The translations under genes and the position numbers were made by a program. Shown here in pieces: positions 38,665 to 64,000 of a DNA stretch of 64,000 nt. Under the pieces are notes generated by a model, which worked only from the letters and a program-made list of their open reading frames with translations, did not search any database and had not been told where the DNA came from. The stretch covers positions 30,679 to 94,678 of the forward strand of contig CAMBKF010000004.1 in assembly GCA_945868085.1 (NCBI GenBank), read 5' to 3'. Origin of the DNA: an uncultured Oscillibacter sp. GTDB taxonomy: Bacteria > Bacillota > Clostridia > Oscillospirales > Oscillospiraceae. Numbering within the stretch: the first letter of the stretch is position 1; every line of letters begins with the position of its first letter.

Positions 38665-38667
38665 CGC

Positions 38668-38763: not shown

Positions 38764-38811
38764 CCCGATGGTGTCGAAAATGGGGCTCTTCTGCTGCCCA
38801 CAGGTACTATT

Positions 38812-38840
38812 ATAATACGCAGGCGATGCAAAAGCAACGG
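38812..38840 (-). promoter_or_regulatory. Promoter of the phzF unit
   Basis: On the minus strand TTGCTT and TATAAT (about 38817-38812) are spaced 17 bp, about 50 bp before the 31-codon frame. It supports transcription of phzF separately from the upstream redox operon. Confidence 0.55.
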
Positions 38841-38911
38841 CATTCGTGGGGCCATAAGCGGCAGATAGAGCCGCACCATAAGCCGGTATGAGAGTAAGTG
38901 CAGCGTTTTTA

Positions 38912-44401: not shown

Positions 44402-44503
44402 AATATTTGTCCTTTCTTTTTACAGCACAGTTTTTTAGCGCGATGCAAGGTGGTGCCCCCAATGCACCGCGTGAACACGGGGAAATCCCCGTTCGTTCCT
44501 GAT

Positions 44504-46609: not shown

Positions 46610-46630
46610 AAAAACACTCCTTTTGCATGC

Positions 46631-46666
46631 AAAAATGCGGATATGCCAATGAAAGCATATCCGCAT
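46631..46666 (-). terminator. TPP-riboswitch terminator
   Basis: On the minus strand ATGCGGATATGC (46666-46655) pairs with GCATATCCGCAT (46646-46635) with loop of 8, followed by a T-run (46635-46631). It lies between the aptamer and the thiM ribosome binding site and should form when TPP is bound. Confidence 0.9.
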
Positions 46667-46693
46667 TACGTATTTCACGCGCCGCGACGGTAT

Positions 46694-46777
46694 GTCCCTA
46701 CGTTGGCATTATCCAAATCAGGTTGAAGGGTCTGGGCGATACAGCCCACTCTCAGCCCGCTCCGGCGAGCTCCCCTT
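46694..46777 (-). promoter_or_regulatory. TPP riboswitch aptamer (THI element)
   Basis: Reading the minus strand: GGGGAGC, GGGCTGAGAGTGGG, AGACCCTTCAACCTGAT, then TGGATAATGCCAACGTAGGGA. These are the conserved THI-box blocks (CUGAGA, ACCCUU, ACCUGAU, GGAUAAUGCCAACGUAGGGA) in order. It controls the thiM-thiE-HAD-thiD-cytX operon. Confidence 0.97.
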
Positions 46778-46788
46778 TTTACGGGGTT

Positions 46789-47203: not shown

Positions 47204-47248
47204 GGAGCTGCTGGGCGGATTCGAACCGCCGACCTCATCCTTACCAAG
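47203..47248 (-). repeat. attL-like duplicate of the tRNA-Thr 3' end
   Basis: These 46 bases are identical to 63951-63996. On the minus strand they read from the anticodon loop (CTTGGTAAGGATG), through the variable region and T arm (GGCGGTTCGAATCCGCC) to the acceptor and CCA. Identity to the tRNA stops after CTTACCAAG, within the anticodon stem-loop. This is the usual footprint of a tyrosine-integrase element inserted into a tRNA gene. Confidence 0.9.
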
Positions 47249-47352
47249 TGATAAAAAGCCCTCCGGCCGTTGGTATATAAGGCTTTGCGGGCGTTTTTAC
47301 CGCAAAAAGGATGAGGTCGAAAACGCTTTGCTCCATGTGTTCCGTCCGCTCG

Positions 47353-47462
47353 TTTCCCCGTGTGGGTCAGGGTGTGGGTCAGCGCCGCAAAGAGCATCGG
47401 TGTGGGTCAACTTTTGGCGGGGCGAAAATCGTTCCATTTTGCGCTGCTGTAGACAATAAAAG
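47353..47462. repeat. 110-bp direct repeat, left copy (arm sites plus end motif)
   Basis: Contains GTGTGGGTCA at 47360, 47372 and 47400 and ends with GCGCTGCTGTAGACAATAAA AG (47441-47462). The same arrangement with identical internal spacing recurs at 57864-57973. Two further degenerate repeats of the decamer are at 47545-47554 and 47558-47566. Between 47463 and 47732 no gene is seen. Confidence 0.8.
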
Positions 47463-47732
47463 GGTACCTTGCTAAAAGTATAGAGCCACCGGGCGGAGAA
47501 AGGCTCTCCCGCCAGACGGCTCTTTATTTTCGCAGTCGTTTCCCGTATGGGTCAAAATGTGGGTCAAGCGGAAACCTCTGCGTCAAACTGATTGGTAGCA
47601 TCATAAACGAACGGTCGAAACTGCACGATCCTTACCTCTTAAATAGTATACCATAGTTTTTGCAAAATTTGAAGCAGAAAATTGGAATCAGTGTCGTCAC
47701 TTTTTATTCCAATATCGCACCGCTGCAAACAA

Positions 47733-47816: not shown

Positions 47817-50800
47817 TTACGCCTCCCGCTCCTTACGCTTCAGGACGAAGGCTGCGGCGAGAATCGTCACGGGCAGGGCGATGACCCAAACCAGCACGCC
47901 GGTATCGCCGGTGGCGGGGGTATTGCTGCCGCCGGTCTGAATGGTCACATCGCTCATGTCATAGAGCCGGGTCTGGGTGTTTGCGAAGCGGTAGTAGGCC
48001 GCCAGGGCGTAGTAGCCCTGCTCGGTGGCCATGCCGTCCAGGTCGCCGTTAGCGGTGTGGCGGAAGCCGCCGCCGGTTACATAGAAGCCCGCCAGCGCAT
48101 CCAGGACGGTGAGGCCGTTCTTGATGAACCGGCTGTCGGTGGTAGGATCAATACCCAGGGCCGTCAGGGCCACGATGACCTGATCGCAGGATTCGCTGTT
48201 CACGGTGCCCCAGCTGCCAAAGCCTCCGTCATTGCGCTGCAGGGCGGAAAGGGCCTCCAGAGCCTTATCCACAGCAGCCTTCACGGTCTCGTTGGTTTTA
48301 TAGTAGGGAGCCAGAGACTGAATGGCCATTGCGGTCATGTCAGGATCTGCGTCGTTGCCGCTGAGGGTCCAGCCGCCGCCCGGAAGCTGTGCGTCCAGAA
48401 TTGCCTGGATCAGCTTCTCACGGGTCACATCACCGGAGGTCGGATAGTTGTGGCTGTCCAGAGCGATGAGCGCCCAGATGGGGCCGTTGATGCCCTGCTT
48501 CTGCACATAGGCCATGTTATCCAGACCCTTCAGCAGGTTGTGGCCGCCCACATTGGTGACATCCTTGCCGATAGAGGTGAGGGCCAGGATCACCCGGGCG
48601 TTGTCGGTAACTTTGGCCCGGTGCAGGCGCTCATTGGCGTCAGCCTTGGCCTTCACATACTCCACCACATTGTCATAGTACCCGGCGGGCACGGGGCGGC
48701 CGCTGCGGGCCAGGCCAATGACCATCCACTCGCCGCCGATGGAGTTCACCGTGGGGGTGCCCAGAGTACCCATGAAGTCGCCGGTGGTCTTGTAGAGTTC
48801 GTCCAGCTTCTCGGTCAAAACTGCCTTTCTGAGGGCAGCCAGCTTGGCGACGGCAGATTGCAGCTTGTCAGCGTTGCTCACCTGCGCCTGCTGCTCGGGG
48901 GTCAGGGCGTCGAAAGCGGCCTGGGCGGTGAGGACGGCCTCGCCCCTCTCCAGGGTAACCTCACCGATGGCGTCGATCTTGGCCTCAGCGTCCTTGATAG
49001 GTGCCTCCAGGATTCTCTTCATCTCGGCAAACACGGCCTCGGCCTTCTCCACCTCTGCGATGGTGAGGCAGTCCTTCTGCTCTGTCGTCAGGGCGACGAA
49101 CCTCTTTTCGGCGGCGGCCACTGCCTGGCTGTCGGCCACGGACAGCTTATCGGCCTCCGGCAGGTCGGAAATCTGAGCCTTGAGAGTGTCCACGGAGCGG
49201 AAGCTCGCAATGGCCTGCTCCAGCTTCTCCAGCTTGGCGAGGTTGCTCACCTTGGACTGCTCGGCCTTGCTGAGGATGCCGTAGGCAGCCCGGGCGGCGG
49301 AAACGGCGTTCTCGGCGGCGGAATAGTTCTCGTACTTCACGGCGGCAGGCAGGTCGTCGATGAGCCCAACGACATAGTCCGCACCGGTGTCGGCGCTGAC
49401 GACATGCAGGACATACCACGTGCCGTCGTTGTTCTGCTTGTTGCCTGCCTGATTGTTCATAGTCAGCCAGTTCTTCGCGCCGCAGCCCAAATAGATGGTG
49501 TCGCCCACCTTGACGGGGATCGTCTCCGTGCGCTTGAAGAAGCTGCTGCCCTCAGATCTGTCCGTGACCTTCTCATTCAAAAACGTCTTGACCTGGAAGT
49601 TCTTGTTGCTGGCGGTGGGCGTCAACTTGACGGATGCAGACTCTCCGTTGATGATCAAGGTGTAATCATACTGTCCACCAGCCTCGCCGGGGGTAAAGTT
49701 CGGGGTCAGCATCGCCCCGTCCACGGTCAGGGCCTTAACGGTGGTGTCGGAATTGCCCCAGGTGCCGCCCAAGTCCGCACCGTAGCCGCTGGACGTGAAC
49801 ATGATACGGATCACATCGCCGCTTGTCAGCTTGCCGTTCTTCACCGTGAACGCACCGAAGCCCTCGTTGACGAACCAATCGTTCAGCGTGCCCATCCAGC
49901 CGGCGCTCTTGTTGCCGTCGAACTCGCCGAGGCCGTTGATGGAGGAGATGTAGTTGCTCTCTGCGCCCACCACCGTGGCGTTCTTGGTTTTCAGCGCAGC
50001 GACCACACAGGACATCATGGTGCTGTCGGCGGACAGATCGACCCATGTATCCACCAGCGTGCCGTCCCAAGGTGCTCCGGCCTTCTTGGAATAGGTGGTG
50101 TTCTCCACAATGACCTGCACCTTGCCGTAGTTGGCGGCGGCTTTCTTCATCGCCACCACAGCGGACTGATAGGCGCTCTCCACCGCAGTGACAGAGGCGG
50201 CGGCGTTGATGTTCTTCACGCCCTCGTCATAGGCGGCCTTCGCCTTGTCGCCCAGGCTGTTATACAGCGTTTGCAGGCGGGAGAGAGCAGCAGTCCTGGC
50301 GGCGGCCACAGTCTCCTCGCTGTCGGCGGTCATGGCCTGATACTCCGTCTTGGAGACCATCTTCACCTTGAACGTGATGGTGCTGCCATCGACCACATCA
50401 CCGGGGATAACATACTCCGCTAGATAGTAGCCGTCATACGCCGTCTTCATGTCGTCGGGCGTGACCAGTGTCTGCGGCTCCATCAGGTTCCACGTCGTGC
50501 CGCCGTCCACCGACCACACGGGCCAGTATTTCTCGTCTGTGGTGTCCAGATAATAGCGGATGAACGCGTGGTCGCCCGCCTTGGCGCTGCCGGGCATACT
50601 GCCGGTAAGCTTCGCCCACACGGGGTTGGGAACAGTGCCGTCCACATTGGGCGTCACCACCCATTTGATATTGGGATATCCGTAATAAGGGTTGCCGCCG
50701 CCGTCCTTTTTGGGCAACTGGTTTTCGTCAACGTCGACCTCCAGCGTCACCTTTGCCGGGGTCTTTAAGCTGTCGGCATCGATCTCCGCCACCGCGGCCA

Positions 50801-52856
50801 GGCGCTTGGTCTCGTTGGCGGACAGCAGCTTCTTCTGATAGCTGTTCAGCCCGCCGTACACCGTCTGAATGTCCTCCACCAGCGTCTTATAGTTGGCGTT
50901 CAGGTCGTTCAGGTCGTCGGGCAGATAGGACAGGTTCTGCCGCAGCCCGGCGATGACCGCCGCGTGGTCGATGGCCGCCTTGCCCAGCTCCTTCAAGAGG
51001 GTGAAGTCCGCGTCATAGGTCTCCATCAGGGCCGTCAGGTCGGTGGCCTTCAGCAAATTGGCCGTCAGGGTCTCGTACTGAGCCTTGAGCGCGGCGTAGC
51101 CCTCCGCCGTGAAGTCATAGTAGTGGAAGCTGTCGAAATACGCCTTGGCCTCGGCGGCCTTTTCGGCGCGGTACTGCTTCAGCAGCGCGGCGGGATTGTC
51201 CGCCTCGGTCACGTGGATCAGGGCGTAGTCGCCGCCGTACAGGGAGTAATACTCGCCGATGGTGGTGCTGCCGTAGATATCCACGCGGGTGTAGTCATCC
51301 GGCGTCACGTTGAACATGGCCACGGTGTACCAGCCGGGCTTGGTGAACACGTATTGCAGACTGCCGTCCGCGCCGGTAACGGCGGTGGTCTTATGGGTGG
51401 GCTGGGACAGGGCCTCCGTCTCGGACGGGTCGCTGATGAACAGGGTGATGCCTGCGGCGCTCTTGCCGCTGCCCAGGTTGGTGGTGTTAGCCCCCGTCAC
51501 GGTGGCGGAGAACTTCGCCTTGTCGCCCACCTTGGCGCTGCCGGGAGCGGTCATGTCGATCAGAGCCACGCTGCTTTGATAGTGCTCCTCGCTGGCGTTC
51601 AGCAGGTTCCATGCCGAGCTGTCAAGTCCGCTGGAATCCTCCTTGTTAAACAGGGGCTGGGCGACACGCACCATTTTCACGCTGTCGCCGTTGTGCAACT
51701 GCACGTTGCGCCAGCCGTTATCGGCGCTCTGACTCTCACGGGAAGACCAGTAATACAGCCCCGCGCAGCTGCCGTTGACGTACACCATAAACCGCGGGTT
51801 GGTATCGCCGGTATTGGCGTAACTGTAACCAGGCAGACTGGTATCGTCGTGGGCGTCCAGCGTGATATTGGCCGCGTTATACGCGCCCAGCAGGTTTGCG
51901 CTGCCCGCTGCCAGCGTCAGGCTGCTGTTGGTATACAGGCTCGTGCCGCCGAAGCCGGGATACAGGGCGGAGAAGTTGTTGATGTAGGTAAAGGAAACCG
52001 TCACGTCCGTGCCGCTGGTCAGCTGGCGATAGGCGTTTTTCAGCGCCGTCATGTGCTGGCTGAAGCTAGTCAGCACAGCGTAGTCCTCGGTGGTGCCGCC
52101 CACGATGCGGTAAGCCATGTCAGTCTTTAGGACGGCGTAGGCGTCGGTATAGGCCGTCCAGCTGTCCGCCGTATAGTCGCTCTCCTTCAGCTTGGCGGGG
52201 TCGTACTGCTGCAGCAGGGCTTCGGCCTCCGGCTTGGCCGCCATGTACTTGTTATAGGCGGCGGCATAGGCTTCTTTGTTCACCAGCTTGTGGGCATCCG
52301 TCGCCGCGGCCAGCTTGTCCACGTTCTCCTGCTGGTCGGCGGCAATGTTGGCCGTGGTGGGTTTGCCGTTTTCATACAGCTTGTCCAGCAGCGCCTGACC
52401 ATCCTTTACCGCCTTGGCGTAGGGCTGCCAGGACAGGGAGGTGCAGTTATCGGCGCTGGGCTTTTCCCAAAGCGTGTTTTCAGGCCAGCCCTCTTCTAAG
52501 CTGTTGCTAAGATTCCACCGCCAGTCGGTGTTCAACGCCTCATACAGCGCCGTGGCGTTGACCCGGCTGGTGGGGATCAGGTTGGCGATAGCGGCAGGAT
52601 ATGCAGCATTGAATTCGGCCAATGCCTCGTCAACCTTTGTCTGTGTCACATCTTCATTATCATAGACAGCCTGCGCTTTCTTTACAATGGTAGATAGTTC
52701 ATTCCAGAAGCCCGTTTCGCTGGTTGCTTTTCCATTCCAGCAATCATTTTCGGTATAATAGCCCGTGGTGGGAACGCTGTCAAGGGCTGCTTTCAGCGCA
52801 CTTTTGTCGATTGTCTGACCGGCAGTGCTAAGGTTGGCGTCATAGTTCCCATGGTA
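47817..52856 (-). pseudogene. Giant cell-wall-anchored surface protein, 5' end missing
   Basis: An open frame of about 1,680 residues of real-looking sequence. It holds FIVAR-like helical repeats (for example ALTPEQQAQVSN), a cleaved-adhesin/Ig-like region, a DUF4430 (transcobalamin-like) domain near residues 950-1060, a squalene-cyclase/prenyltransferase-type alpha-barrel (about 1430-1660, QLPGGGWTLSGNDADPDMTA) and a sorting signal TPATGDTG with helix and KRKEREA tail. The C-terminus is complete. At the N-terminus there is no signal peptide or ribosome binding site: homology-like sequence begins abruptly at NYDANLSTAG and the open frame then runs antisense into the mobC-like gene. I read it as truncated by the mobilisation module. 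Confidence 0.75.
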
Positions 52857-52905
52857 ACAGGCTTTGCAGGATTTTCGGCGTGCCTTATGACGATTTGGAG
52901 GAATT

Positions 52906-53319
52906 ATGAGTGAAAACAAAGATAGATTGAATTTCCGGATGAAGCCGGAAACGGCGGAAAAGTTAGAGCACTGGTACAAGGCCGACCACTGCCGCAGTAG
53001 GAATGAGTTCGTGGAAAAGGCCGTGAACTACTACGCGGATGCGCTGGCGGCGGAGAACAGCACCACGCTGCCGGTGGCGATACAGACCGCCATCGACGGG
53101 CGGCTGAAGCTGCTGGAGGATCGCATGGCGTCCATCCTCTACAAGCAGACGGTTGAGATGGACATGGCAATCTCCATTCTGCTGCAAAGTGTCAATGTGG
53201 ACGAGTCCGTGCTGCGTCAGGAGCGTGCCAAGAGCGTCGCGGCGGTCAAGCACACCAATGGTCGTCTGCGCATGGAGCAAAAGCTCCGTGAGTTGGAGAA
53301 CGCGGAATGGCAAGGCTGA
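52906..53319 (+). CDS. MobC-like relaxosome accessory protein (ribbon-helix-helix)
   Basis: A 137-residue protein. Its N-terminus (RLNFRMKPETAEKLEHWYK then SRNEFVEKAVNYYADAL) is a ribbon-helix-helix DNA-binding domain. The rest is helical (about 60-130), suited to oligomerisation. It overlaps the relaxase gene by 13 bp and has GGAGGAA before its ATG. Position and size match the small protein that helps MobP3 relaxases open oriT. An oriT should lie just upstream, in about 52857-52905, but no clear nic site is recognisable there. Confidence 0.75.
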   Translation: MSENKDRLNFRMKPETAEKLEHWYKADHCRSRNEFVEKAVNYYADALAAENSTTLPVAIQTAIDGRLKLLEDRMASILYKQTVEMDMAISILLQSVNVDESVLRQERAKSVAAVKHTNGRLRMEQKLRELENAEWQG

Positions 53320-55265
53320 TCGTCAAGAGCCCCTATATCAAGTGTGGCGGCGGGCAGAATGCAAGCGGGTATCTGAACTACATTGCCACCCGTGAGCGGG
53401 TAGAGATCGTGCCGGATGACCGTCCGCCTACACGCAAGCAGGAGCAGCTCATTCAAAAGCTGGTGAAAGATTTCCCCAACACGAAAGAACTTCTGGAGTA
53501 CAATGACTACACAAACGCCCCCACCAAAGCCAACGCATCGTCTTTCATCACGCTGACGCTGGAGCAGAACTGGAGCCGCGTGCAGTCTACCGAAGGCTAC
53601 GCTAAGTACATCGCCACCCGTCCCAGAGCCGAGCGGCTGGGCAGTCACGGCTTGTTTGGTGACGCGGATCATGTGTCGCTGGACACGGCCATGGACGAAC
53701 TGAGCCATTACACCGGCAATGTGTGGACGCACATTATATCCCTAAAGCGGGAAGATGCCATGCGGCTTGGCTATGACCATGCGGCAGCATGGCGGACGCT
53801 TCTGCGGGCGCACCGCAACGACATCGCCGCCGCTATGAACATTGACCCGAGGGACTTCCGCTGGTACGCGGCCTTCCATAATGAGGGCAATCATCCCCAT
53901 GTCCACATGATGGCGTGGTCGGCGAAGCCAGGGCAAGCGTACTTGGATAGGAATGGTATCAAAGAAATCAAATCAGTGCTGACCAACGAAATCTTTCAGC
54001 AAGAACTGCTGCATCTCTACGAGGAGAAAAGTGTCTCCCGTGACGAGTTGGTACATCAGACTCGGCAGGCTATGTTAGAGTTGGCGCAGCGTATGCGGGA
54101 TGGTCTCTGCATCTGCCCGACTGCGGAGCAAAAGCTCTGGGAGCTGTCACAGAAGCTGGATGACGTGCAGGGGAAGAAAGTGTATGGCTACCTGCCAAAG
54201 TCACTGAAGCAGTTGACGGATGATACGGTGGATGCCATGGCGAAGCTGCCCACGGTCAACAAGTGCTATCAAAAGTGGTGGGAGCTGCAATGTCAGCTCA
54301 ATGATTACTACTCGGAACAGCAGCGGCAGCGTCCGCCGCTGTCACAGCAAAAGGAGTTTCGGCAAATCAAGAATGCGGTCATCCGTGAGGCAGAGCATAT
54401 TCGCCAGGGCCGTATGTCCTTCGAGGACGCAGCCTTGGCGCAGGAGGACGAGCCGGTGGATGACCGCAGTATGTCTTATGACTGCTGGGAGCTGCGGAAA
54501 ATCATTGCTGACGAAAACATACCACTGGAGGAACGGGACCATGCTGCTGCGGAGCTGGAGCAAATCGCCTGTCAAGGCGACCCCCACGCCCAATACCTTA
54601 TGGGACTGCTGTTCCGTGATGGTGGATTGCTGGTGCCAGATGCAGAGCAGGCAAAACACTGGCTGGACGGGTCGGCACAAGAATTGCCTGACGCGCAGTA
54701 TGCCTTGGGGAAGCTGTACCTCTCGGACAATCCTGATATACACAATTCCGCGAAAGGTCTCTTCTGGCTGCAACAGGCGGCGGACAGCGGGCACGAGTAC
54801 GCCGCCTACCGTTTAGGCAAGGAGTATCTTACCGGAGAAAATATTTCAAAGGACACCACACGCTCAGCAGCGTACTTGAGACAGGCAGCAAAGCAAGCCA
54901 ACCCCTACGCGCAGTATCTGTTGGGAAAGCTATACCTCATGGGTGAGGGCGTTCCAAAAGATAAGGACGCCGCACAATATTGGTTTTCCGTGGCGGAGCG
55001 GAACAGCCACGCCTACGCCGGATATTTCCTTGACCGCATGGAGCGGCAGGAGGATTTGCCGCCGCCCAACATTCTGCTGTCCGCCACGCGGCTGCTGCAC
55101 CACATGGGCAATATCTTCAGAGACAACGCACCGCGTCCTGCAGCGCCCACAGGCGTTCAGATTGACCACAAGCGCCTGCAGCGCCTGCGGGAAAAGAAGA
55201 TGGCCCTGGGACACAAGTGGAATGACCATGAGGATGAGCAGAGCCACAACATGAGAGGGTTATAA
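53307..55265 (+). CDS. MobP3-type relaxase with C-terminal Sel1 repeats
   Basis: A 652-residue protein. Residues 1-260 form a relaxase domain: MARLIVKSPYIKCGGG at the N-terminus and the three-His metal motif HNEGNHPHVHMM (H196, H198, H200), with a Tyr-rich N-terminal part for strand transfer. Residues about 430-580 contain Sel1-like repeats (AQYLMGLLFRDGG, AQYALGKLYLSDN, AAYRLGKEYLTGE, AQYLLGKLYLMGEG), a tail often found in MobP3 enzymes. It nicks oriT and pilots DNA during conjugation. No type IV secretion genes are present, so the element is mobilisable rather than self-transmissible. Confidence 0.9.
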   Translation: MARLIVKSPYIKCGGGQNASGYLNYIATRERVEIVPDDRPPTRKQEQLIQKLVKDFPNTKELLEYNDYTNAPTKANASSFITLTLEQNWSRVQSTEGYAKYIATRPRAERLGSHGLFGDADHVSLDTAMDELSHYTGNVWTHIISLKREDAMRLGYDHAAAWRTLLRAHRNDIAAAMNIDPRDFRWYAAFHNEGNHPHVHMMAWSAKPGQAYLDRNGIKEIKSVLTNEIFQQELLHLYEEKSVSRDELVHQTRQAMLELAQRMRDGLCICPTAEQKLWELSQKLDDVQGKKVYGYLPKSLKQLTDDTVDAMAKLPTVNKCYQKWWELQCQLNDYYSEQQRQRPPLSQQKEFRQIKNAVIREAEHIRQGRMSFEDAALAQEDEPVDDRSMSYDCWELRKIIADENIPLEERDHAAAELEQIACQGDPHAQYLMGLLFRDGGLLVPDAEQAKHWLDGSAQELPDAQYALGKLYLSDNPDIHNSAKGLFWLQQAADSGHEYAAYRLGKEYLTGENISKDTTRSAAYLRQAAKQANPYAQYLLGKLYLMGEGVPKDKDAAQYWFSVAERNSHAYAGYFLDRMERQEDLPPPNILLSATRLLHHMGNIFRDNAPRPAAPTGVQIDHKRLQRLREKKMALGHKWNDHEDEQSHNMRGL

Positions 55266-55300: not shown

Positions 55301-55380
55301 AGCCTTTCAAAAAAGTAGTAGCTATTTGGGCAGCTTTGTGGTATGTATGTTTGCTAATAAAAAGCAAAGGAGCTGATTCA

Positions 55381-56535
55381 ATGGCCAAGAAACGCGCCAA
55401 CGGCGAGGGCAACATCCGCAAGCGCAAAGACGGCCGGTGGGAGGGCCGCTACACCGCTGGCTACAACCCCGAAACCGGCAAGCGCATCATCAAAAATGTC
55501 CTGGGCAAGACCCAGGCGGAGTGCAAGGCGAAGCTGGCCGCCGCCATGGAGGCCAGCAAGGGCGTCGATGTCAGCCGCGCAGATGAGTATACCGTGGCCA
55601 CATGGCTGCGGAGCTGGTACGACATCTACGCCAAGCCCAATGTGCGGGTGGCCACGGCTGACCGCTACCGCCTGATGATTGAGCAGTACGCCATTCCCCG
55701 CATCGGCAGCATTAAGCTCACAAAGCTGACTGCCCACGACCTGCAAAAGCTCTACAAGGAGCTGATGGAGAGCGGTCGCACCAACCGCAAAAGCGGGCAC
55801 GGCAATCCGGGTCTCAGCAGCACCACCGTCCGCAGCCTGCACTTGATGCTCCACAACGCATTGAACCGTGCCGTAAAAGAGCGCTTGATCCTCTGCAATC
55901 CCACCGGGGACTGCATCGCACCGAAGGTGCAGAAATTTGAAATGCAGATCCTCCAACCGGAACACATCAAAACTTACCTTGACGCCGCAGAGAAACGGGG
56001 ACTGCTGCCCATGTTTTATCTGGAACTGGTCAGCGGACTGCGCAAGGGTGAACTGACCGCCCTCCTGTGGAGTGACCTCGACATCACGGACAAAACCATC
56101 TCCGTCAGCAAGCAGTACGTCAAGAACCCCAATGGGGAGTTGACACTCTCGCGCCCCAAAACGGAGACATCGGTCAGAAAGGTCAGTATTCCACAGGAGG
56201 CTGTTGACCTGCTGGTTGCCGAACACAAGAAGCATCCCGACAACCCATATATGTTCCCATCGCCCGTCACAGGGGAGATGTATTACCCCGATTCCATTGT
56301 GAACCTGCATAAGAAAATTCTGAAAGACGCTGGACTGCCGCACATACGCTTTCACGACCTCAGACATACCTTCGCAACGCTGGCACTGCAAAACGGTGTG
56401 GATGTAAAAACCGTCAGCAGTATGCTGGGGCGCTACGATGCGGGGTTCACTCTCCGTACCTACACCCACGCCACCCGCCAGAAGCAGGACGAGGCCGCCC
56501 AGACCATGGGTAGCTTCATGGAACAGGTGATGTGA
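55381..56535 (+). CDS. Tyrosine integrase (Tn916 Int-like)
   Basis: A 384-residue site-specific recombinase. It has an N-terminal AP2-like arm-binding domain (GNIRKRKDGRWEGRYTAGYN), a SAM-like core-binding domain (about 70-175) and a catalytic domain with SGLRKGE (R221), HDLRHT (H325, R328) and nucleophile Y361 in RTYTHAT. The usual LGH before the Tyr reads LGR (R351), an unusual replacement. It should recombine attL and attR in the tRNA-Thr. AAAGGAG precedes the ATG at 55381. A strong terminator follows. Confidence 0.93.
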   Translation: MAKKRANGEGNIRKRKDGRWEGRYTAGYNPETGKRIIKNVLGKTQAECKAKLAAAMEASKGVDVSRADEYTVATWLRSWYDIYAKPNVRVATADRYRLMIEQYAIPRIGSIKLTKLTAHDLQKLYKELMESGRTNRKSGHGNPGLSSTTVRSLHLMLHNALNRAVKERLILCNPTGDCIAPKVQKFEMQILQPEHIKTYLDAAEKRGLLPMFYLELVSGLRKGELTALLWSDLDITDKTISVSKQYVKNPNGELTLSRPKTETSVRKVSIPQEAVDLLVAEHKKHPDNPYMFPSPVTGEMYYPDSIVNLHKKILKDAGLPHIRFHDLRHTFATLALQNGVDVKTVSSMLGRYDAGFTLRTYTHATRQKQDEAAQTMGSFMEQVM

Positions 56536-56560
56536 GCTGATCAAACTGCACCACAATAAC

Positions 56561-56599
56561 AAACTAGAGCTCCTGCCCATGGGGCAGGAGCTCTAGTTT
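56561..56599. terminator. Bidirectional terminator after the integrase
   Basis: AAACTAGAGCTCCTGCCC (56561-56578) and its complement (56582-56599) form an 18-bp perfect stem with loop ATG between the convergent integrase and transporter genes. Confidence 0.88.
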
Positions 56600-56606
56600 A
56601 CTCATT

Positions 56607-57710
56607 TCACCGCATCCAGAGTGTCATGGCTACCAACAGGACGCCTAGAAAACCGAAGCTGATGGCGGAGAACAGCACCATGAACCGCCCCGTCTGCCCC
56701 TTGACGTGCTTTGTGTATTCCCGGAAAGTGATCAGACTGGCCAGTGACGCCACCAGCGTCCCCGCGCCGCCGATATTCACGCCCACCAGCAGTCCTCGAT
56801 AGTCGTCGGTGAACCGGCTCAGCAGGATGGCTGCCGGTACGTTGCTGATGACCTGACTGGTCAGTGCCGCCACCGGCATGGCCCCGTGGGTGAGCAGCTT
56901 CCGGAACAGCTCACGCACCGGCTCAATCCGCGCCATGTTGCCCGAAAAGGTGAAAAACGCCGCAAACGTCACCAGCAGTCCCCAGTCCACGCCCAGCAGC
57001 GCACGGCGATCCAGCACCAGCAGAGCCATCACGACAACGAGCAGTCCCAGCCAGTAGGGGATTCCCCGCAGCACCATAGCCACCGCCACGCAGAACAGTA
57101 CGCCGTATACCGCAGTACGACGCTTGTCCGGCAGTGTCTCCTGCTGGGGGACAGTCAGCCCTTCACGGGGCAGAAACAGACAGCACAGCAGGATCAGCGC
57201 CGTGGACAGCAGGAACGGCGGCAGCATAATGGACAGGAATTCCCCGTTAGGGATGTTGTAGTGGTTGAACAGATACAGGTTCTGGGGATTGCCGAAGGGC
57301 GTCAGCATACCGCCCAGGTTGGCGGCGCAGTTCTGCAGAATGAACGTCAGCGCCGTCCATTTCGTCTGGCCGGTGCGCTCCAGCACAAACCAGCTGAGGG
57401 GCAGGAACGTCAGCAGTGCCGTGTCGTTGGTCAGCAGCATGGAGCCCACCAGCGTGATACCTACCAGCGCCGTCACCGCGCCGCGGGTGGTGTGGAACAC
57501 CTGCACCAGCCTCTGCGCCAGCAGAGGAAACAGTCCCACGCGGCGCAGCGCACCCACCACCGCCAGCACGCATAGCAGGCAGGATAGCGTTTTCACATCG
57601 TAGTAGCCAAGATAGGCCGCGTCAGGCGGCACGAACACCGCCGTCACCGCCGCAGCCAGCACCGCAATCACCGGCATGGCGTTGGCCTTACACCATCGTA
57701 ACAGCTTCAT
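56607..57710 (-). CDS. SLC13/ArsB-type anion transporter
   Basis: A 367-residue protein of about ten helices in the ion-transporter superfamily of ArsB, NhaD and citrate/dicarboxylate carriers. LLTNDTALLTFLPLSW and GGMLTPFGNPQNLYLFN are the paired conserved (S/T)ND and GNPQN segments of this group; a second set (SNVPAAILLSRF and GGAGTLVASLAS) lies in the C-terminal half. The substrate could be an inorganic or organic anion. It is an accessory gene between the integrase and the repeats at 57864, convergent to the integrase. Confidence 0.82.
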   Translation of the reverse strand: MKLLRWCKANAMPVIAVLAAAVTAVFVPPDAAYLGYYDVKTLSCLLCVLAVVGALRRVGLFPLLAQRLVQVFHTTRGAVTALVGITLVGSMLLTNDTALLTFLPLSWFVLERTGQTKWTALTFILQNCAANLGGMLTPFGNPQNLYLFNHYNIPNGEFLSIMLPPFLLSTALILLCCLFLPREGLTVPQQETLPDKRRTAVYGVLFCVAVAMVLRGIPYWLGLLVVVMALLVLDRRALLGVDWGLLVTFAAFFTFSGNMARIEPVRELFRKLLTHGAMPVAALTSQVISNVPAAILLSRFTDDYRGLLVGVNIGGAGTLVASLASLITFREYTKHVKGQTGRFMVLFSAISFGFLGVLLVAMTLWMR

Positions 57711-57863
57711 AAATACCTCGCACAGCCTCGTAAGAGGCAGAAAGAATCAACGGCAGGTACTGTAGCATATCCTGCCGCAAAATACAAGAACGCGGCGAAA
57801 CAAAGAAAAGGCTTTTCAGAATAACGGCTTTTCCGTCCGCTCATCTTTTGCCCTTTCCGAGCA

Positions 57864-57973
57864 TTTCCCCGTGTGGGTCACGGTGTGGGTCAGAGCCACC
57901 GGCATCGTCGGTGTGGGTCAGCTTGCGATGGTGTGAGAATCGTTATGTTTTGCACTGCTGGAAACAATAAAAG
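57864..57973. repeat. 110-bp direct repeat, right copy (arm sites plus end motif)
   Basis: GTGTGGGTCA at 57871, 57883 and 57911, then the 22-bp end motif at 57952-57973, with the same spacing as the copy 10,511 bp to the left. From 57711 to 58297 no gene is seen; a further degenerate end motif (GCGCTACAGTAAACAAAG) lies near 58123-58140. Confidence 0.8.
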
Positions 57974-58297
57974 AACACCTTGGAAACAGCATCAAACTCT
58001 TGCAACTCATATGTATCCACAACTTTGACCAAAATACGATGCAATTCCTTCACAGAGACTTTCCTTTGATAATAAGTGTACCATAAATGCAGGCAGTTCA
58101 CAAGTTTTTACGCTGCTCATATTTTGCGCTACAGTAAACAAAGAAAAAGTGTTGTCTCTGTCAGACGCGCAGCTATGTACTGACTTCTTCTCCAACAAAA
58201 TATTTACATTTTCTTTCTACAGAAAAATGCCAGGAAGCCGCCTGTCTCAATGAGACGGACGGCTTTTTGGCAAAGAATCAGTAAGAAGAGAGCAATG

Positions 58298-59602
58298 TCA
58301 ATCGTGCGGCATCTTTGCAGTCTTTCCTCTTCCAAAGCAGAGGTAGTACCCAGATGCTGCGGCATAGACCACGACCACCCATTTCAGAGCGGACAGGTTC
58401 GCGACCAATACGCAGATGAACAGCAGTACCACAAGCACCATGGCGATACCCGGCACCACAGGATGCGGTATCTCAAAGGGGCGCTCCAATGTCGGCTCCT
58501 GCCGGTACAGGCGGATATTGGACAGGATGACCAGCGCATACATGATGAGCGCCGCAAACACGGAGATCGTCACCATTAGCGCAGTTTTTCCGGTCAGGCA
58601 CAGGCAAAGCGCCAGCGCTGACGGGATCAGCAGTCCAAAGGTCGGTGCACCATGACAGTTCAGCCGCGCGAACAGCTTCGGCAGATAGCCCACGCGTCCC
58701 ATGGCATACGCCTGACGGGAGAACGCCATCACGATAGAAGAGAAGGACGCGACCATGGCAAAGAGCGCAATCGCGGCAATTACCTTCGGAAGAACAGAGC
58801 CTTCACCCAGCGCCAACTCAAGAGAGCGGGCCAGCGGATAGTCCACTTTGGCGATCTCGTGGTAGTCGGCAATGCCTGCGGGCAGCAGCAGGTCTATGAG
58901 CGCCGTGATAAACAGCGTAACCAGCGCGGGAACATAGCCCCGCAGGATGCCGGTTTTGGGGTCTTCCATCTCCTCAGACTGCATAATGGGGCCATCTACC
59001 GCGAAGTAGAACCACATGGCAAAGGGAACGGCTGCGGCCACGCCGGATAATCCCGCCGCAGGCGGTTCGTCCAGCATCAAGCGCTCCGGCTGAAAGTGCG
59101 GCAGCGCTACCACCGCAAACAGCACCAGTCCCGCCAGTGCCGCAATGGTGGCGATCAGTTCAAACCGGGAGGATGATTTCGCGCCCAGCAGATTCAGCGC
59201 CACAAACAGGCAGAAGAACACCACAGTGGCGGTCATGGCGGGGATCGTCGGGACGAGGTAATGCAGCAGTTGGCCGGTGGTGATCGCCACCGCGCAGGGC
59301 GCGACAATGTACGCCACCAGCACGGAAAAGCCCGCAATAAATCCCGCAAAGCCACCCATGGAGCGGCGGGCGTACTCAGACGCACCACCTGCGCTGGGGC
59401 TGCTGATCGCTAACTCCATATAACAGGCCATGAAGCAGACATACATCGCCGTTACCGGCAGAAACGCCAGCAGGAAGGAGCCGGGGCCGCCGGTCTCAAA
59501 GCCATAGCTGAAGCCGTAGTAGTTGCCGGAGCAGACCGCCCCTACCGCCAGCGCCCACAGGTGCCGGGGCTTTAGGACTTTTTGCAGCTTACTCTCCAGC
59601 AT
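58298..59602 (-). CDS. APC-superfamily permease (ethanolamine/amino acid type)
   Basis: A 434-residue, 12-helix transporter with AVGAVCSGNYYGFSYGFETGG in helix 1 and ELAISSPSAGGASEYARRSMG in helix 2, the pattern of ethanolamine- and amino-acid-permease branches of APC. It overlaps the 3' end of the alcohol dehydrogenase gene by 14 bp. The ATG at 59602 is used here; a TTG at 59626 with GGAGG close by is an alternative. Cotranscription with an aminotransferase-fold enzyme and an alcohol dehydrogenase suggests an amine or amino-alcohol substrate. Confidence 0.85.
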   Translation of the reverse strand: MLESKLQKVLKPRHLWALAVGAVCSGNYYGFSYGFETGGPGSFLLAFLPVTAMYVCFMACYMELAISSPSAGGASEYARRSMGGFAGFIAGFSVLVAYIVAPCAVAITTGQLLHYLVPTIPAMTATVVFFCLFVALNLLGAKSSSRFELIATIAALAGLVLFAVVALPHFQPERLMLDEPPAAGLSGVAAAVPFAMWFYFAVDGPIMQSEEMEDPKTGILRGYVPALVTLFITALIDLLLPAGIADYHEIAKVDYPLARSLELALGEGSVLPKVIAAIALFAMVASFSSIVMAFSRQAYAMGRVGYLPKLFARLNCHGAPTFGLLIPSALALCLCLTGKTALMVTISVFAALIMYALVILSNIRLYRQEPTLERPFEIPHPVVPGIAMVLVVLLFICVLVANLSALKWVVVVYAAASGYYLCFGRGKTAKMPHD

Positions 59603-60746
59603 AGGCTTTTTGGAACAGTTCTTCAAACGCCTCCACGGTCATTTCGCGGGGATTGCTGGGGGTGGAGACATTGGCCATAGCCGCCACAGACAGGGCGTGG
59701 AAGTCCTCCGGCTTGATCTCCGGATGCTCGCGCATAGGCTTGATGCCCACATCGGTGCACAGCTGGCGCAGACCGTCCACACAGGCGGCAGCGGCTTCTT
59801 CCGCAGTCTTGCCGGTGACATCAAGTCCCATAGCCTCGGCCACATCGGCGTATTTCTTGGTGTTGGCGGGCAGATTGTAGGCGGTCACAGTGGGCAGCAG
59901 GATAGCGTTGGCCACGCCGTGGGGCAGGTCGTAACGGCCACCCAGGGCTTCTGCCATGCAGTGAACGGCGGCCACATCAGAGTAGCCGAAGGCGATACCG
60001 GCGATAGTGCTGCCCAGCATCATGCCGGTGCAGGCGTCCAGAGAACGGTTATTCACCGCATTGCGGAGATTCTTGGAGATAAGCTTGATGGCGTAAAGCG
60101 CATAGGCGTCCGTGTGGGGAACGGCCAGCTTGCAGGTGTAGGCTTCCACCGCGTGGGTCATGGCGTCGATACCGGTGGCGGCCATGATGTGGGGCGGCAG
60201 ACCCATCAGCATGGTGGGGTCAACCAGCGCTATTTTCGGCGCGGCCTTGGCGTCGAAGATGTTCAGCTTCACATGGGTCTCGGAATCTGTCACCACGGCG
60301 AAAGGCGTTACCTCACTGCCGGTGCCGGCGGTGGTGGGAATAGCGATCAGCGGTGTGATGGGACGCAGCAGCTTGTCCGCGCCGCACCAATCCTGCACCT
60401 TGCCGCCGTGGGTCAGCAGCGTGCCGATAGCCTTGGCGGTGTCCATGGAGCTGCCGCCGCCTACTGCCACCAAGCAATCGATGCCTGCGGCCCTGGCGGT
60501 CTCATAGCCCTCGACACAGTGATAATCTCTGGGGTTGGGAACGATCTTATCGTAATAAGTATAGGGAATGTCGGCGTCTCGCAGACTGGTCTCTACATCA
60601 CGGGTCAGACCGGCACGGATGACACCCTGATCGGCCACGATCATCACATGAGTAGCGCCCAGAGATTTGGCGCACACACCGGCTTCCTTGACAGCGCCCA
60701 CACCGAAACGAATGGTGGTGGGGAGTGAAAACGTATATTGCAGCAT
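59589..60746 (-). CDS. Iron-containing alcohol dehydrogenase
   Basis: A 385-residue group III alcohol dehydrogenase. GGGSSMDTAK (residues 96-105) binds NAD(P), TAGTGSEVTPFAV follows, and the metal ligands are D194 and H198 in GIDAMTHAVEAY plus His in VHCMAEAL and YDLPHG. It would interconvert an aldehyde and an alcohol. The start at 60746 has AGGAGG 8 bp upstream; the ATG at 60752 is too close to that site. It lies between the class V aminotransferase-fold gene and the permease gene in one operon. Confidence 0.93.
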   Translation of the reverse strand: MLQYTFSLPTTIRFGVGAVKEAGVCAKSLGATHVMIVADQGVIRAGLTRDVETSLRDADIPYTYYDKIVPNPRDYHCVEGYETARAAGIDCLVAVGGGSSMDTAKAIGTLLTHGGKVQDWCGADKLLRPITPLIAIPTTAGTGSEVTPFAVVTDSETHVKLNIFDAKAAPKIALVDPTMLMGLPPHIMAATGIDAMTHAVEAYTCKLAVPHTDAYALYAIKLISKNLRNAVNNRSLDACTGMMLGSTIAGIAFGYSDVAAVHCMAEALGGRYDLPHGVANAILLPTVTAYNLPANTKKYADVAEAMGLDVTGKTAEEAAAACVDGLRQLCTDVGIKPMREHPEIKPEDFHALSVAAMANVSTPSNPREMTVEAFEELFQKAYAGE

Positions 60747-60828
60747 ATTCATATCCTCCTATGGAACGAGGCAGGGACAGGCATCGTCCCTGCCTCACTT
60801 GTTATGATACGATTGGTTGGATTTCCGC

Positions 60829-62103
60829 TCAGCGGTTGCGGGCCAGCTCGGCCACGGTGTTCAGCACACGGTCGATGTCGCTCTCGGTGCAGTAGGGAGC
60901 CATGCCCAGACGGATCAGGCCGCCGCTCTCAGCAAGGCCCAGCGCAGCCACGGCTTCCACGGCGTAGAAGTCGCCATGCCAGGAGTTGATGCCCTTGCTG
61001 CCAAACACCTCCGTGACCTGTTCGGGTGCGTAGCCCTCCATGGTAAAGGAAACGGTGGGGGTGCGGGGCTGACCCTCAGCGGGGCCGTAGACCGTCACAC
61101 CGGGGATAGCCCGCAGGCCCATACGCAGCTTCTTGGCCAGCTCCATCTCGTGGGTGTCCATGGCCAGCACACCGGCCACGATGTTTCTGCGGCGACCGGT
61201 CAGGCCCTTCAGCTCATCCTCGAAGTACTCAGCGTACTTTTCGCCCTCGGCGGCGATGAAATTCACGGCGGCGGTGATGCCTGCCAGCGTCTCGTACTGA
61301 GGCGTACCCATGTGGAAGCGGCGCCCGCCCTCGGCGATATCGTCACACATGGTGTTGTTGAAATCCAGAGAGGCGATGTATTCCTTCTTCAGATAGATGA
61401 CGCCGCTGTGAGGGCCAAACCACTTGTAGGGGCTGCACAGCAGAGCGTCGGTGCCGATGGCCTTCACATCCACGGGACGGTGGGCGGAGTAGTGAACGGC
61501 GTCCACCACAGTAAACGCGCCGTGCTCGTGCGCCAGATCGATGAACTTCTTCACGTCGGTGATGGTCCCCAGGGCGTTGGAGGCCCAGTTCACGGCAACG
61601 ACCTTCGTCTTGTCGGACAGCTTGGACTTGAAGTCCTCAAAGTCCAGCTGCTGGGTGACAGGATCCAGCCGCACGGTCTTGACCACGCAGCCCAGGCGCT
61701 TCAGGGACATCCAGGGAGCGCTGTTGCAGCGGTGGTCGATCTCGGTGATGATCAGCTCGTCGCCGGGCTTAAAGGTCTTGGACAGGTTCAAGGCCAGATT
61801 GTAGCTGTTCTGCGTGGAGGCCATGCTGAAGCCTACCTCCTGCACCTCGCAGCCCAGGAAGTCCGCTACGGCGGCGCGGGCCGTTTCCTCGGTATAGCGG
61901 GCCATGGTGCTGGCACGGAAGTTGCCGTCCTCATTGGCGTTGTCGTTGACCATATAGCCCACCATGGCGTCCAGCACCAGCTGGGGGATCTGCGTACCGC
62001 CGGGGCCATCCAGATAAGCAATGGGTGCGCCGGCGATCTCCAGCTTGCAGGCCGGGAACTGTGCGCGGATCGCGTCTACGTCGTACTTGAAACCGTTTTT
62101 CAT
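60829..62103 (-). CDS. Class V aminotransferase-fold PLP enzyme (cysteine-desulfurase-like)
   Basis: A 424-residue fold-type I PLP protein. DAVHYSAHRPVD supplies the cofactor-binding Asp and His, and SPYKWFGPHSG the Schiff-base lysine (K227). It resembles the cysteine-desulfurase-like (VC1184-type) branch. The catalytic cysteine loop expected in true desulfurases is absent: the region reads GINSWHGDFYAVEAV. An aminotransferase or lyase reaction on another amino compound is therefore more likely. The start at 62103 has AGGTGG upstream. It is first in a three-gene operon divergent from a PucR-type regulator. Confidence 0.88.
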   Translation of the reverse strand: MKNGFKYDVDAIRAQFPACKLEIAGAPIAYLDGPGGTQIPQLVLDAMVGYMVNDNANEDGNFRASTMARYTEETARAAVADFLGCEVQEVGFSMASTQNSYNLALNLSKTFKPGDELIITEIDHRCNSAPWMSLKRLGCVVKTVRLDPVTQQLDFEDFKSKLSDKTKVVAVNWASNALGTITDVKKFIDLAHEHGAFTVVDAVHYSAHRPVDVKAIGTDALLCSPYKWFGPHSGVIYLKKEYIASLDFNNTMCDDIAEGGRRFHMGTPQYETLAGITAAVNFIAAEGEKYAEYFEDELKGLTGRRRNIVAGVLAMDTHEMELAKKLRMGLRAIPGVTVYGPAEGQPRTPTVSFTMEGYAPEQVTEVFGSKGINSWHGDFYAVEAVAALGLAESGGLIRLGMAPYCTESDIDRVLNTVAELARNR

Positions 62104-62269
62104 GATATTGTCCACCTTTCTATGCACAAATTATTTGCTTTTGCCTTTGTACCTTAAGTGTATCACTCTATGCTCAATATCTTCAATGACACGAAATCCA
62201 AAAAGGTCGTTCCCAAATTGTAGTTTTTACAACTCTGCCTGCCTTTGTAAATTCTTATGCCTGAAAATA

Positions 62270-62298
62270 TTGCGCTAAAGTCTGAAAGTGGATATAAT
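62270..62298 (+). promoter_or_regulatory. Promoter of the pucR-type gene
   Basis: TTGCGC (62270-62275) and TATAAT (62293-62298) with 17-bp spacing, 35 bp before the GTG start at 62333. Confidence 0.7.
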
Positions 62299-62332
62299 AA
62301 AAACAATATAATTAGAAACGGAGGGATCGCTT

Positions 62333-63571
62333 GTGGTTTTGCTGCGGGATATACTATCGGCCCCGTTATTCTCCAACTTTCGGATCGTGTCAGGCTTCAA
62401 CGGCATCAATACGCCTGTCACGCAGGTAGGCTTTTTCGAGTGGGAGTCCGGCGCGGATATTGAAAGAAACTTTGAAAAAGGCGAGTTTATTATCACCACA
62501 TTGACGGCGATGAAGGACGATCCCAGCCGTGCGGAAATGTGTCTCCGGACACTAATTCGCCATCAGGTATCCGCCATCGCCATTAAGGATATCTATTATA
62601 AAGAGATTTCCGCGCAGCTAAAGGAGTTTTCAAACACATGGAATGTGCCGATCCTGTTTTTCAGTGACACATTTATTGACAATATTATTTTCCACATAAA
62701 AACGGCGCTTCTAAAAGAAGACTCCGCCATGCAGGAGCGGATCGTGAAAAGCCTTCTGACCGATCCTGCTCCTGCACCCGAACAATGTGAGGAGTACGCC
62801 CGCAAGCTGAACCCGTTTTTTGAGAAGCAGCTCCTGTTCTGCGCCTATATCTCTGTCAGTGATCTGACATCTGCCACACCTGTAAGAAAACCGCTGCGCT
62901 TTGATACTTACGGGAATTTTGAAACGCGAGGCGCACAGGCTTGGCAGCAGAGCTCCGGTAAAGATTCCCTGCCGCCGCTGAAATATTCTATTCTTCCTTA
63001 CCGGCAGGGCGCCTTTCATATCTGTACCACAACGGACATAACTGCGTTTGAGCACGACTTCCCTTTGAAATTCGTCAAGAGCTTTTTCCCGGATTTTGGC
63101 AGCGACTACCGCATCGGCTTCTGCACAGAACCGGGAACACTGGCCGACCTTGCACGATCCATGAAAAAGGCGTTCTTCGCCAATATCACGTGCACGATCG
63201 ACGAAATATCTTCTCTGGATTTTTCCGAAACGGGTATGGATCAGCTTCTCTGCCCCGCTTGTTCCTGTAGTTGGAGCAAACAGTACTATCAAAAGCTTTT
63301 GGAAAAGCTTTCTGACGCCGGAGATAATTTGGGGGTGTTGATCTCCACCATGGTCACCTATACCAGATGCTGCGGAGATGTAGCGCTCACCTCGAAGCTG
63401 TCCTATCAACACGGCAACACCATACGCTACCGATTGCAAAAGATACGCAAAGCATGGGGAATCAATGACGCGTTGAGCTTCGATGCCCAGATGGTCATGT
63501 TCTGCCGGCTGCACCATATCTATCAATTGCTGGAAGAGACACAATTGCTGGAAGAGACAATGCCCTCGTAA
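62333..63571 (+). CDS. PucR-family transcriptional regulator
   Basis: A 412-residue protein. Residues 1-125 match the PucR N-terminal domain (LLRDILSAPLFSNFRIVSGF, ERNFEKGEFIITTLTAMKDD), the middle is a variable sensor, and residues about 335-395 are the PucR helix-turn-helix (LISTMVTYTRCCGDVALTSK then NTIRYRLQKIRKAWGI). The start is GTG behind GGAGGG. Such regulators respond to nitrogen compounds such as purines, amino acids or amines. It is divergent from the aminotransferase-alcohol dehydrogenase-permease operon and presumably activates it. Confidence 0.9.
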   Translation: MVLLRDILSAPLFSNFRIVSGFNGINTPVTQVGFFEWESGADIERNFEKGEFIITTLTAMKDDPSRAEMCLRTLIRHQVSAIAIKDIYYKEISAQLKEFSNTWNVPILFFSDTFIDNIIFHIKTALLKEDSAMQERIVKSLLTDPAPAPEQCEEYARKLNPFFEKQLLFCAYISVSDLTSATPVRKPLRFDTYGNFETRGAQAWQQSSGKDSLPPLKYSILPYRQGAFHICTTTDITAFEHDFPLKFVKSFFPDFGSDYRIGFCTEPGTLADLARSMKKAFFANITCTIDEISSLDFSETGMDQLLCPACSCSWSKQYYQKLLEKLSDAGDNLGVLISTMVTYTRCCGDVALTSKLSYQHGNTIRYRLQKIRKAWGINDALSFDAQMVMFCRLHHIYQLLEETQLLEETMPS

Positions 63572-63578
63572 TGCTTTC

Positions 63579-63626
63579 AACGAAAAAGTTCCCTGGTTCA
63601 AATTTTGAACCAAGGAACTTTTCGTT
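63579..63626 (+). terminator. Terminator after the pucR-type gene
   Basis: A long imperfect hairpin: AACGAAAAAGTTCC...TGGTTCAAA on the left and TTTGAACCA...GGAACTTTTCGTT on the right, with TTTTCGTT at its 3' side. Confidence 0.75.
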
Positions 63627-63647
63627 ACATGACAAGTCCGCAAATAA

Positions 63648-63764
63648 AGCATGCCGGGCCACTACGATGCCGGATTCACACTCCGCACCTACACCCACGC
63701 CACCCGCCAGAAGCAGGACGAAGCCGCCCAGACCATGGGTAGCTTCATGGCACAGGTGATGTAA
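63648..63764 (+). pseudogene. Remnant of a second tyrosine integrase (C-terminal 37 codons)
   Basis: An open stretch reading MPGHYDAGFTLRTYTHATRQ KQDEAAQTMGSFMAQVM, equal to residues 348-384 of the integrase at 55381-56535 with only a few differences. It contains the catalytic Tyr. It is preceded by an in-frame TAA and has no start signal, so it is a fragment. Its GH dipeptide is the normal family residue, whereas the intact integrase has GR. Its DNA differs at several codons from the intact gene, so it is a separate integrase lineage. Confidence 0.9.
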
Positions 63765-63783
63765 ACGCCGAAAATGATAAAAA

Positions 63784-63816
63784 CACCGGAGAGGCAACCG
63801 AACTTCCTCTCCGGTG
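63784..63816 (+). terminator. Terminator after the integrase remnant
   Basis: CACCGGAGAGG (63784-63794) pairs with CCTCTCCGGTG (63806-63816), followed by CTCTTTC. It is the usual position of a terminator after an integrase gene. Confidence 0.6.
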
Positions 63817-63844
63817 CTCTTTCGCTCTTTCCGCATATTTCCGC

Positions 63845-63890
63845 GTGTGGGTCAGGGTGTGGGTCAAAGTTGACCCACACCCTGACCCAC
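63845..63890. repeat. Array of 10-bp repeats, right outer copy
   Basis: GTGTGGGTCA at 63845-63854 and 63857-63866, inverted copies at 63871-63880 and 63883-63890. It lies between the integrase remnant and the tRNA-Thr, exactly 16,748 bp from the left outer array. Confidence 0.8.
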
Positions 63891-63950
63891 AGATTAAATT
63901 GGTCAAAAAGCAAAGAAAAAGTCCTATTTTCGATAGAAAACAGGACTTTT

Positions 63951-64000
63951 TGGAGCTGCTGGGCGGATTCGAACCGCCGACCTCATCCTTACCAAGGATG
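63951..64000 (-). tRNA. tRNA-Thr (GGT anticodon), 5' half outside window; attR-like end
   Basis: On the minus strand the window shows the 3' part: anticodon stem-loop CATCCTTGGTAAGGATG (anticodon GGT), variable loop, T arm GGCGGTTCGAATCCGCC, acceptor strand CAGCAGC, discriminator T and encoded CCA. A 15-bp terminator hairpin with T-run follows (63950-63916). The anticodon stem is complete here, unlike the fragment at 47203-47248, so this is presumably the functional gene restored by insertion. Confidence 0.9.

Follow-up and report, generated by a model that had tools for sequence, protein, structure and literature searches.

A recently exchanged four-gene cassette in a Vescimonas integrative-element array, possibly for cleavage of a γ-hydroxy amino acid by a TIGR01976 enzyme

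We analysed a 64,000-nucleotide stretch of contig CAMBKF010000004.1 (the window), which was deposited as an uncultured Oscillibacter sp.; the source genome is a Vescimonas species (Oscillospiraceae), with an rpoB segment 93% identical to that of Vescimonas fastidiosa. Towards the right end of the window there is a cassette of four genes, encoding a PucR-type regulator, a class V pyridoxal phosphate (PLP) enzyme of the family TIGR01976, an iron-containing alcohol dehydrogenase (Fe-ADH) and an APC permease. The probable role of the cassette is to take up an unusual amino acid, split it to alanine and an aldehyde, and convert the aldehyde to an alcohol. With slightly less than even confidence, we describe it as an accessory catabolic module that sits in an integrative-element array at the Vescimonas tRNA-Thr gene and works by import, retro-aldol cleavage and reduction. 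We hold with greater reserve the narrower proposal that this is a horizontally exchanged gut module for γ-hydroxy amino acids, in which the TIGR01976 protein acts as a bacterial catabolic Cβ–Cγ lyase together with an aldehyde reductase. If true, a large family at present known as ‘cysteine desulfurase-like’ would gain a chemical function. TIGR01976 is widespread and routinely annotated in this way despite the absence of the desulfurase cysteine; were it linked to the cleavage of hydroxylated amino acids, many annotations would be corrected and there would be a reaction to test.

A sequence-only reading of this stretch had proposed the same four genes, and all four were present at its coordinates and strands in the open reading frame (ORF) list and in Pfam and NCBIfam searches. 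The cassette has the following features.

58298..59626, minus strand: APC permease, ethanolamine-permease branch (ORF, Pfam/NCBIfam, relatives' loci)
59589..60752, minus strand: Fe-ADH, predicted aldehyde reductase (Pfam/NCBIfam, solved relatives)
60829..62127, minus strand: class V PLP enzyme, TIGR01976, predicted Cβ–Cγ lyase (NCBIfam, alignment, tree)
62128..62332, no strand: divergent promoter region of the PucR gene and the operon (ORF layout)
62333..63571, plus strand: PucR-type regulator (Pfam domains, relatives' loci)

A 38-bp overlap between the APC and ADH frames suggests a single operon, and 76 bp separate the ADH and PLP genes. The PLP and PucR genes are divergent and lie ∼205 bp apart; a promoter scan gave no strong promoter for the operon. 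The regulator has both a PucR N-terminal domain (PF07905, 59.7 bits) and an HTH_30 domain (32.3 bits) above the Pfam cut-offs. The Fe-ADH is full length, with PF00465 N-terminal and PF25137 C-terminal domains, and no single curated NCBIfam subgroup fits it; its best solved relatives are an NAD-dependent methanol dehydrogenase, 1,3-propanediol dehydrogenase and lactaldehyde reductase. All four genes are under purifying constraint relative to V. fastidiosa, with ratios of nonsynonymous to synonymous differences per site (pN/pS) of 0.04 for PLP, 0.08 for ADH, 0.18 for PucR and 0.29 for APC.

The PLP protein scores 376.8 bits against TIGR01976, the ‘cysteine desulfurase-like’ VC1184 family, where the curated NCBIfam cut-off is 352.35. 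It has the family motifs and also matches PF00266. Against the sufS model it reaches only 192.6 bits (cut-off 475.1). On alignment, the column of the SufS catalytic cysteine (RxGHHCA loop) is occupied by Tyr388, which bears out the earlier statement that the desulfurase cysteine is lacking; we therefore rejected the cysteine desulfurase label. The loss is not a peculiarity of this gene: the same column holds tyrosine or phenylalanine in every aligned TIGR01976 relative, and the missing cysteine is thus a property of the family. The PLP lysine (Lys235), His132, Asp209 and the carboxylate arginine (Arg406) are all retained. In SufS-type enzymes this arginine binds the α-carboxylate of the substrate. 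The subgroup containing the cassette enzyme differs from most of TIGR01976 in having FHMGTPQYE instead of IETGTLNHEG at residues ∼270–279, and its members are often paired with PucR. A further cysteine, Cys231, lies four residues ahead of the PLP lysine and is found in all of the aligned bacterial TIGR01976 proteins, the equivalent residue in FGM3 and the SufS-type row being phenylalanine.

In the Protein Data Bank the PLP protein finds its top match in FGM3 (PDB 9x4u), an enzyme that cleaves the Cβ–Cγ bond of 4(R)-hydroxy-L-arginine to give L-alanine and a second product (PMC10967133) by a retro-aldol reaction in which a tyrosine is the proposed base (PMC10367076). Like the cassette enzyme, FGM3 is a SufS-type protein without the catalytic cysteine, and its Tyr-Lys and Gly-Pro-His motifs are also those of TIGR01976. 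Where it differs from the SufS-type row (Tyr234-Lys235, Gly238-Pro239-His240, Gly44 and Thr358), it agrees with TIGR01976; the rows for FGM3 and the SufS-type enzyme are the segments shown by the solved-structure search. The window protein has the FGM3-type set of Lys235, Arg406, Tyr234 and His240 with no cysteine. The base tyrosine of FGM3 may correspond to either of two alignment columns, Lys−1 or Lys+2, which in the window protein hold tyrosine and phenylalanine, respectively. In the tree, FGM3 grouped with TIGR01976 with a Shimodaira–Hasegawa-like approximate likelihood ratio test (SH-aLRT) value of 98, although the FGM3 branch is long and only segments of FGM3 and SufS are in the alignment. 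The two enzymes also differ: FGM3 is distant in sequence and acts with a P450 partner in the biosynthetic fungal fusaoctaxin pathway, whereas the activity of the bacterial cassette enzyme is a prediction.

A second homologue is UstD (PDB 7mkv), which forms γ-hydroxy amino acids via an enamine (PMC11976203). Its reaction, in which a β-carbon nucleophile combines with aldehydes, resembles the reverse of the one proposed here; it differs in starting with aspartate decarboxylation and in belonging to fungal secondary metabolism.

The reaction sequence may thus be pictured as follows. PucR would sense the substrate and control the operon, and the APC permease would import an α-amino acid with a γ-hydroxyl. 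The PLP enzyme would form an aldimine via Lys235, with the carboxylate held by Arg406, and a retro-aldol cleavage between Cβ and Cγ would release an aldehyde together with alanine or one of its analogues. Presumably working in the reductive direction, the Fe-ADH would use NAD(P)H to convert the aldehyde to an alcohol, and the cell would obtain an amino acid as well as a sink for electrons. Candidate substrates are homoserine, 4-hydroxythreonine, 4-hydroxy-branched-chain amino acids and 4-hydroxyglutamate. The earlier reading had described an import–deaminate–reduce pathway. Import and reduction are kept in our proposal; because the carboxylate arginine is present and TIGR01976 resembles the Cβ–Cγ lyase FGM3, cleavage fits better than deamination.

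A 4-hydroxy amino acid lyase would need a hydroxylase before it and an aldehyde oxidiser after it, and neighbours of these kinds occur beside TIGR01976 genes elsewhere. In Salinivibrio and Gloeothece, TIGR01976 genes directly follow PF10014 dioxygenases, a family whose characterised members hydroxylate C4 of free leucine, isoleucine and threonine (PMC3684760). On four Rhizobium plasmids a TIGR01976 gene lies beside genes for an aldehyde dehydrogenase and an M20 hydrolase, the first three of these clusters being alike and hence not independent. The loci in Rhizobium etli Mim1 (L138 and L140) and Rhizobium CB3060 (L139) add a cupin and amino-acid ABC transporters, lie on conjugative plasmids from isolates of Mimosa and Leucaena, and are possibly plant amino-acid catabolic clusters. 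Closer PLP relatives (67–74% identical) come from gut and rumen Bacillota, and the divergent PucR gene is kept in several cases. The closest of these adjoin an ornithine-racemase-like protein that is below the Orr cut-off (L010:9143-11662 and L017:6583-7464), and the L010 locus also has an NhaC-type antiporter.

Several observations weigh against Cβ–Cγ cleavage by the cassette enzyme. The PLP protein scores almost equally against FGM3 (160.1 bits) and a SufS-type enzyme (158.1 bits). Foldseek ranks SufS structures first for a medium-quality model (mean predicted local distance difference test score, pLDDT, of 74.4). Several TIGR01976 loci are without an aldehyde-handling neighbour, and the cases with such a neighbour lack a background rate. 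The 67–74% relatives have no adjacent ADH or APC gene, some having an Orr-like racemase or an EamA transporter instead, and the closest relatives of the permease are ethanolamine permeases within eut operons. In the literature searched there was no paper on TIGR01976 function and no activity for any bacterial member; Rv3778c, a distant relative without the PLP lysine, is described as non-catalytic (PMC12910592). FGM3 was not among the Foldseek matches listed, so the fold search could not tell FGM3 and SufS apart, and with a model of this quality we discarded structural ranking as uninformative on the point.

The nearness of the fold and sequence to SufS and CsdB structures, together with a weak match to the C–S lyase family EgtE, would suit a Cβ–heteroatom lyase acting on cysteine sulfinate, a sulfoxide, selenocysteine or another β-substituted alanine, in which case the ADH would serve some unrelated leaving group. 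We consider this distinctly unlikely, since the catalytic cysteine is absent, there are no sulfur-handling genes in the cassette, and the TIGR01976 neighbours in several genomes handle aldehydes or hydroxylate amino acids.

Fe-ADHs can work in either direction. The steps could then be reversed, with the Fe-ADH oxidising the γ-hydroxyl and the PLP enzyme hydrolysing the resulting γ-keto amino acid in the manner of kynureninase, to yield alanine and a carboxylic acid. Kynureninase uses the same nucleophilic aminoacrylate as UstD (PMC13397446). However, the substrate of FGM3 is the hydroxy form, and the aldehyde dehydrogenases beside TIGR01976 genes suggest an aldehyde rather than an acid product; we regard the reversed order as quite improbable.

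The permease belongs to PF13520, and its top NCBIfam model is the ethanolamine permease TIGR00908 (eat), the nearest family, whose cut-off of 381.75 bits it narrowly misses at 371.8. Its nearest Bacillota relatives (43–44% identical) adjoin EutB/EutC or EutA. The cassette itself is without EutB/EutC. These relationships would also fit a pathway in which ethanolamine or another amino alcohol is imported, transamination by the PLP enzyme gives a hydroxyaldehyde, and the Fe-ADH turns this into a diol, a role in keeping with its resemblance to lactaldehyde reductase and 1,3-propanediol dehydrogenase. Ethanolamine has no carboxylate for the retained Arg406 to bind, the nearest characterised relatives of the PLP enzyme are lyases, desulfurases and aldolases, and the PucR-paired close homologues have no adjacent eut-type permease. 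An amino-alcohol substrate, as offered by the sequence-only reading, is therefore retained because of the permease and weakened by the arginine: we judge transamination unlikely and favour cleavage of an amino acid.

The cassette was found in 3 of 32 Vescimonas genomes. The window genome is 84.5% complete, and the number of genomes sampled is modest. A search of a plasmid collection located a 99.3% identical PLP protein on replicon pMM35_01 of V. fastidiosa MM35, where the gene order is identical (PucR, PLP, ADH, APC, SLC13 transporter and integrase) and tRNA-Thr(GGT) adjoins the PucR gene; the same-genus set includes genome G1059, a perfect match to this strain. The third carrier, genome G1047, has a 4,455-base locus (G1047:C70) that opens with the same 200 bases as L009, a contig matching window positions 57839–62293 at 99.7%; the two appear to be the same sequence, and G1047 the genome from which contig L009 comes. 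We do not claim L009 as proof of transfer outside the genus: this 4.5-kb contig comes from a metagenome-assembled genome, may have been misbinned and is seemingly the same as G1047:C70. The three carriers have a single shared origin.

Outside Vescimonas, searches of about 1,000 genomes of wider relatives did not turn up the set; the family, order and phylum samples used overlap. No other genome in the family sample (n = 301) had the PLP gene at cassette level, and no other in the order sample (n = 394) had the permease. The phylum sample (n = 399) contained PLP relatives at 37–49% identity in 21 other genomes and permease relatives at 33–44% in 8, and in the loci examined around these matches PLP, ADH and APC genes were never together. 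Neither the PLP searches (family 301, phylum 399) nor the permease searches (order 394, phylum 399) thus gave an independent four-gene copy outside Vescimonas. The earlier reading had named lack of co-occurrence elsewhere as grounds for giving up the pathway. This half applies, since in the samples and loci examined the complete set came from Vescimonas alone while the divergent PLP–PucR pair recurs in other Bacillota. Phage cargo was also rejected: the PLP protein had no match in viral contigs and the block none in phage records.

The finding of the set in one genus only, the absence of ADH and APC genes beside the PLP gene in the other loci examined, and the single origin of the three carriers would all be expected if the genes were passengers with no joint pathway, kept and shared merely through an exchangeable island. 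The operon layout with its APC/ADH frame overlap, the pairing of PucR with close PLP homologues and the low pN/pS in all genes argue the other way, and we think this explanation very improbable. The description as accessory cargo and as a compact set of regulator, transporter, enzyme and reductase holds, the cassette being kept as a unit in three Vescimonas species and recently exchanged.

The evidence for recent exchange comes from comparison with V. fastidiosa. Identity is 91–93% across the integrase (55318–56517), rises to 97.4–99.7% in every 300-base bin from 56518 to 63717, and falls to 87% from 63718 to 64000. These steps coincide with two 115-bp copies of the integrase 3′ end, at 56419–56533 and 63648–63762. 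Synonymous differences per site (pS) are 0.020 for the CitMHS gene and 0.028–0.052 for the cassette genes, compared with 0.29 for the integrase and 0.25 for rpoB outside the block. The CitMHS gene and the cassette have therefore been shared between the species far more recently than either the integrase or rpoB. At the level of sequence comparison, this shows an exchanged block of ∼7.2 kb, comprising the CitMHS transporter and the cassette, bounded by the integrase 3′ end copies. Recombination within these repeats would be the simplest route of exchange. A catabolic module can thus move between gut species while the adjacent integrase keeps core-genome divergence.

The surrounding island has the following features.

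47204..47248, minus strand: duplicated 3′ fragment of tRNA-Thr(GGT), distal attachment-site scar (repeat D1, match to V. fastidiosa tRNA-Thr region)
47345..47481, plus strand: left-end repeat of the element family with three GTGTGGGTCA arms (repeat D3, motif scan)
53307..55265, plus strand: MobP3/MobL relaxase fused to C-terminal Sel1 repeats (Pfam/NCBIfam)
55336..56535, plus strand: tyrosine integrase of the island (Pfam/NCBIfam; homologue in G126)
56419..56533, plus strand: integrase 3′ end, left 115-bp boundary repeat of the exchanged block (repeat D4, identity step)
56607..57710, minus strand: CitMHS/SLC13-type transporter inside the low-divergence block (Pfam, V. fastidiosa comparison)
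57856..57992, plus strand: internal element junction with three GTGTGGGTCA arms (repeat, motif scan; L009 breaks at 57839)
63648..63762, plus strand: integrase 3′ end remnant, right boundary repeat (repeat D4, identity step)
63845..63880, no strand: right-end GTGTGGGTCA arms beside the tRNA (motif scan)
63952..64000, minus strand: 3′ part of tRNA-Thr(GGT), cut by the contig end (complete in V. fastidiosa)

The motif GTGTGGGTCA occurs 11 times in the window, where 0.15 copies are expected, and only at 47.10–47.13, 47.36–47.41, 57.87–57.92 and 63.85–63.88 kb. The integrase probably uses these groups as arm-type sites. The cassette sits between the third and the fourth group, and its earlier placement between element repeats agrees with the GTGTGGGTCA junctions, the 115-bp integrase 3′ end repeat and the tRNA-Thr fragment repeat. 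The end of the window is also the end of the contig, within tRNA-Thr(GGT). The island has the marks of a tRNA-integrated mobile element, namely an integrase, attachment repeats in a tRNA gene and a cassette that some relatives have and others lack, and the combination of integrase, MobP3 relaxase, tRNA-Thr attachment repeats and arm-type direct repeats is that of tRNA-integrated mobilisable elements of Vescimonas. The full integrase and the relaxase belong to the neighbouring element. Unlike such elements, the cassette's own part has an integrase only as the 115-bp remnant and so would move by recombination or by means of the neighbour's integrase.

In genome G126 a partial homologue of the integrase (92%) is found directly beside the same tRNA-Thr, with a left-end tRNA fragment and without CitMHS or the cassette. 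V. fastidiosa has a second copy of the integrase end, CitMHS and junction, indicating elements in tandem; positions 20000–39999 of pMM35_01 (L128) contain related elements in a tandem array, in which integrase ends, CitMHS genes and DUF4430 genes recur. Just outside the left end of the island, a thiamine pyrophosphate (TPP) riboswitch (46678–46786, minus strand) precedes thiamine salvage and transport genes (42432–46678). Beside the left end of the element, 47817–52979 (minus strand) encodes a 1,720-aa protein with DUF4430 and prenyltransferase-like repeats, and related DNA is found beside element ends in V. fastidiosa and G126.

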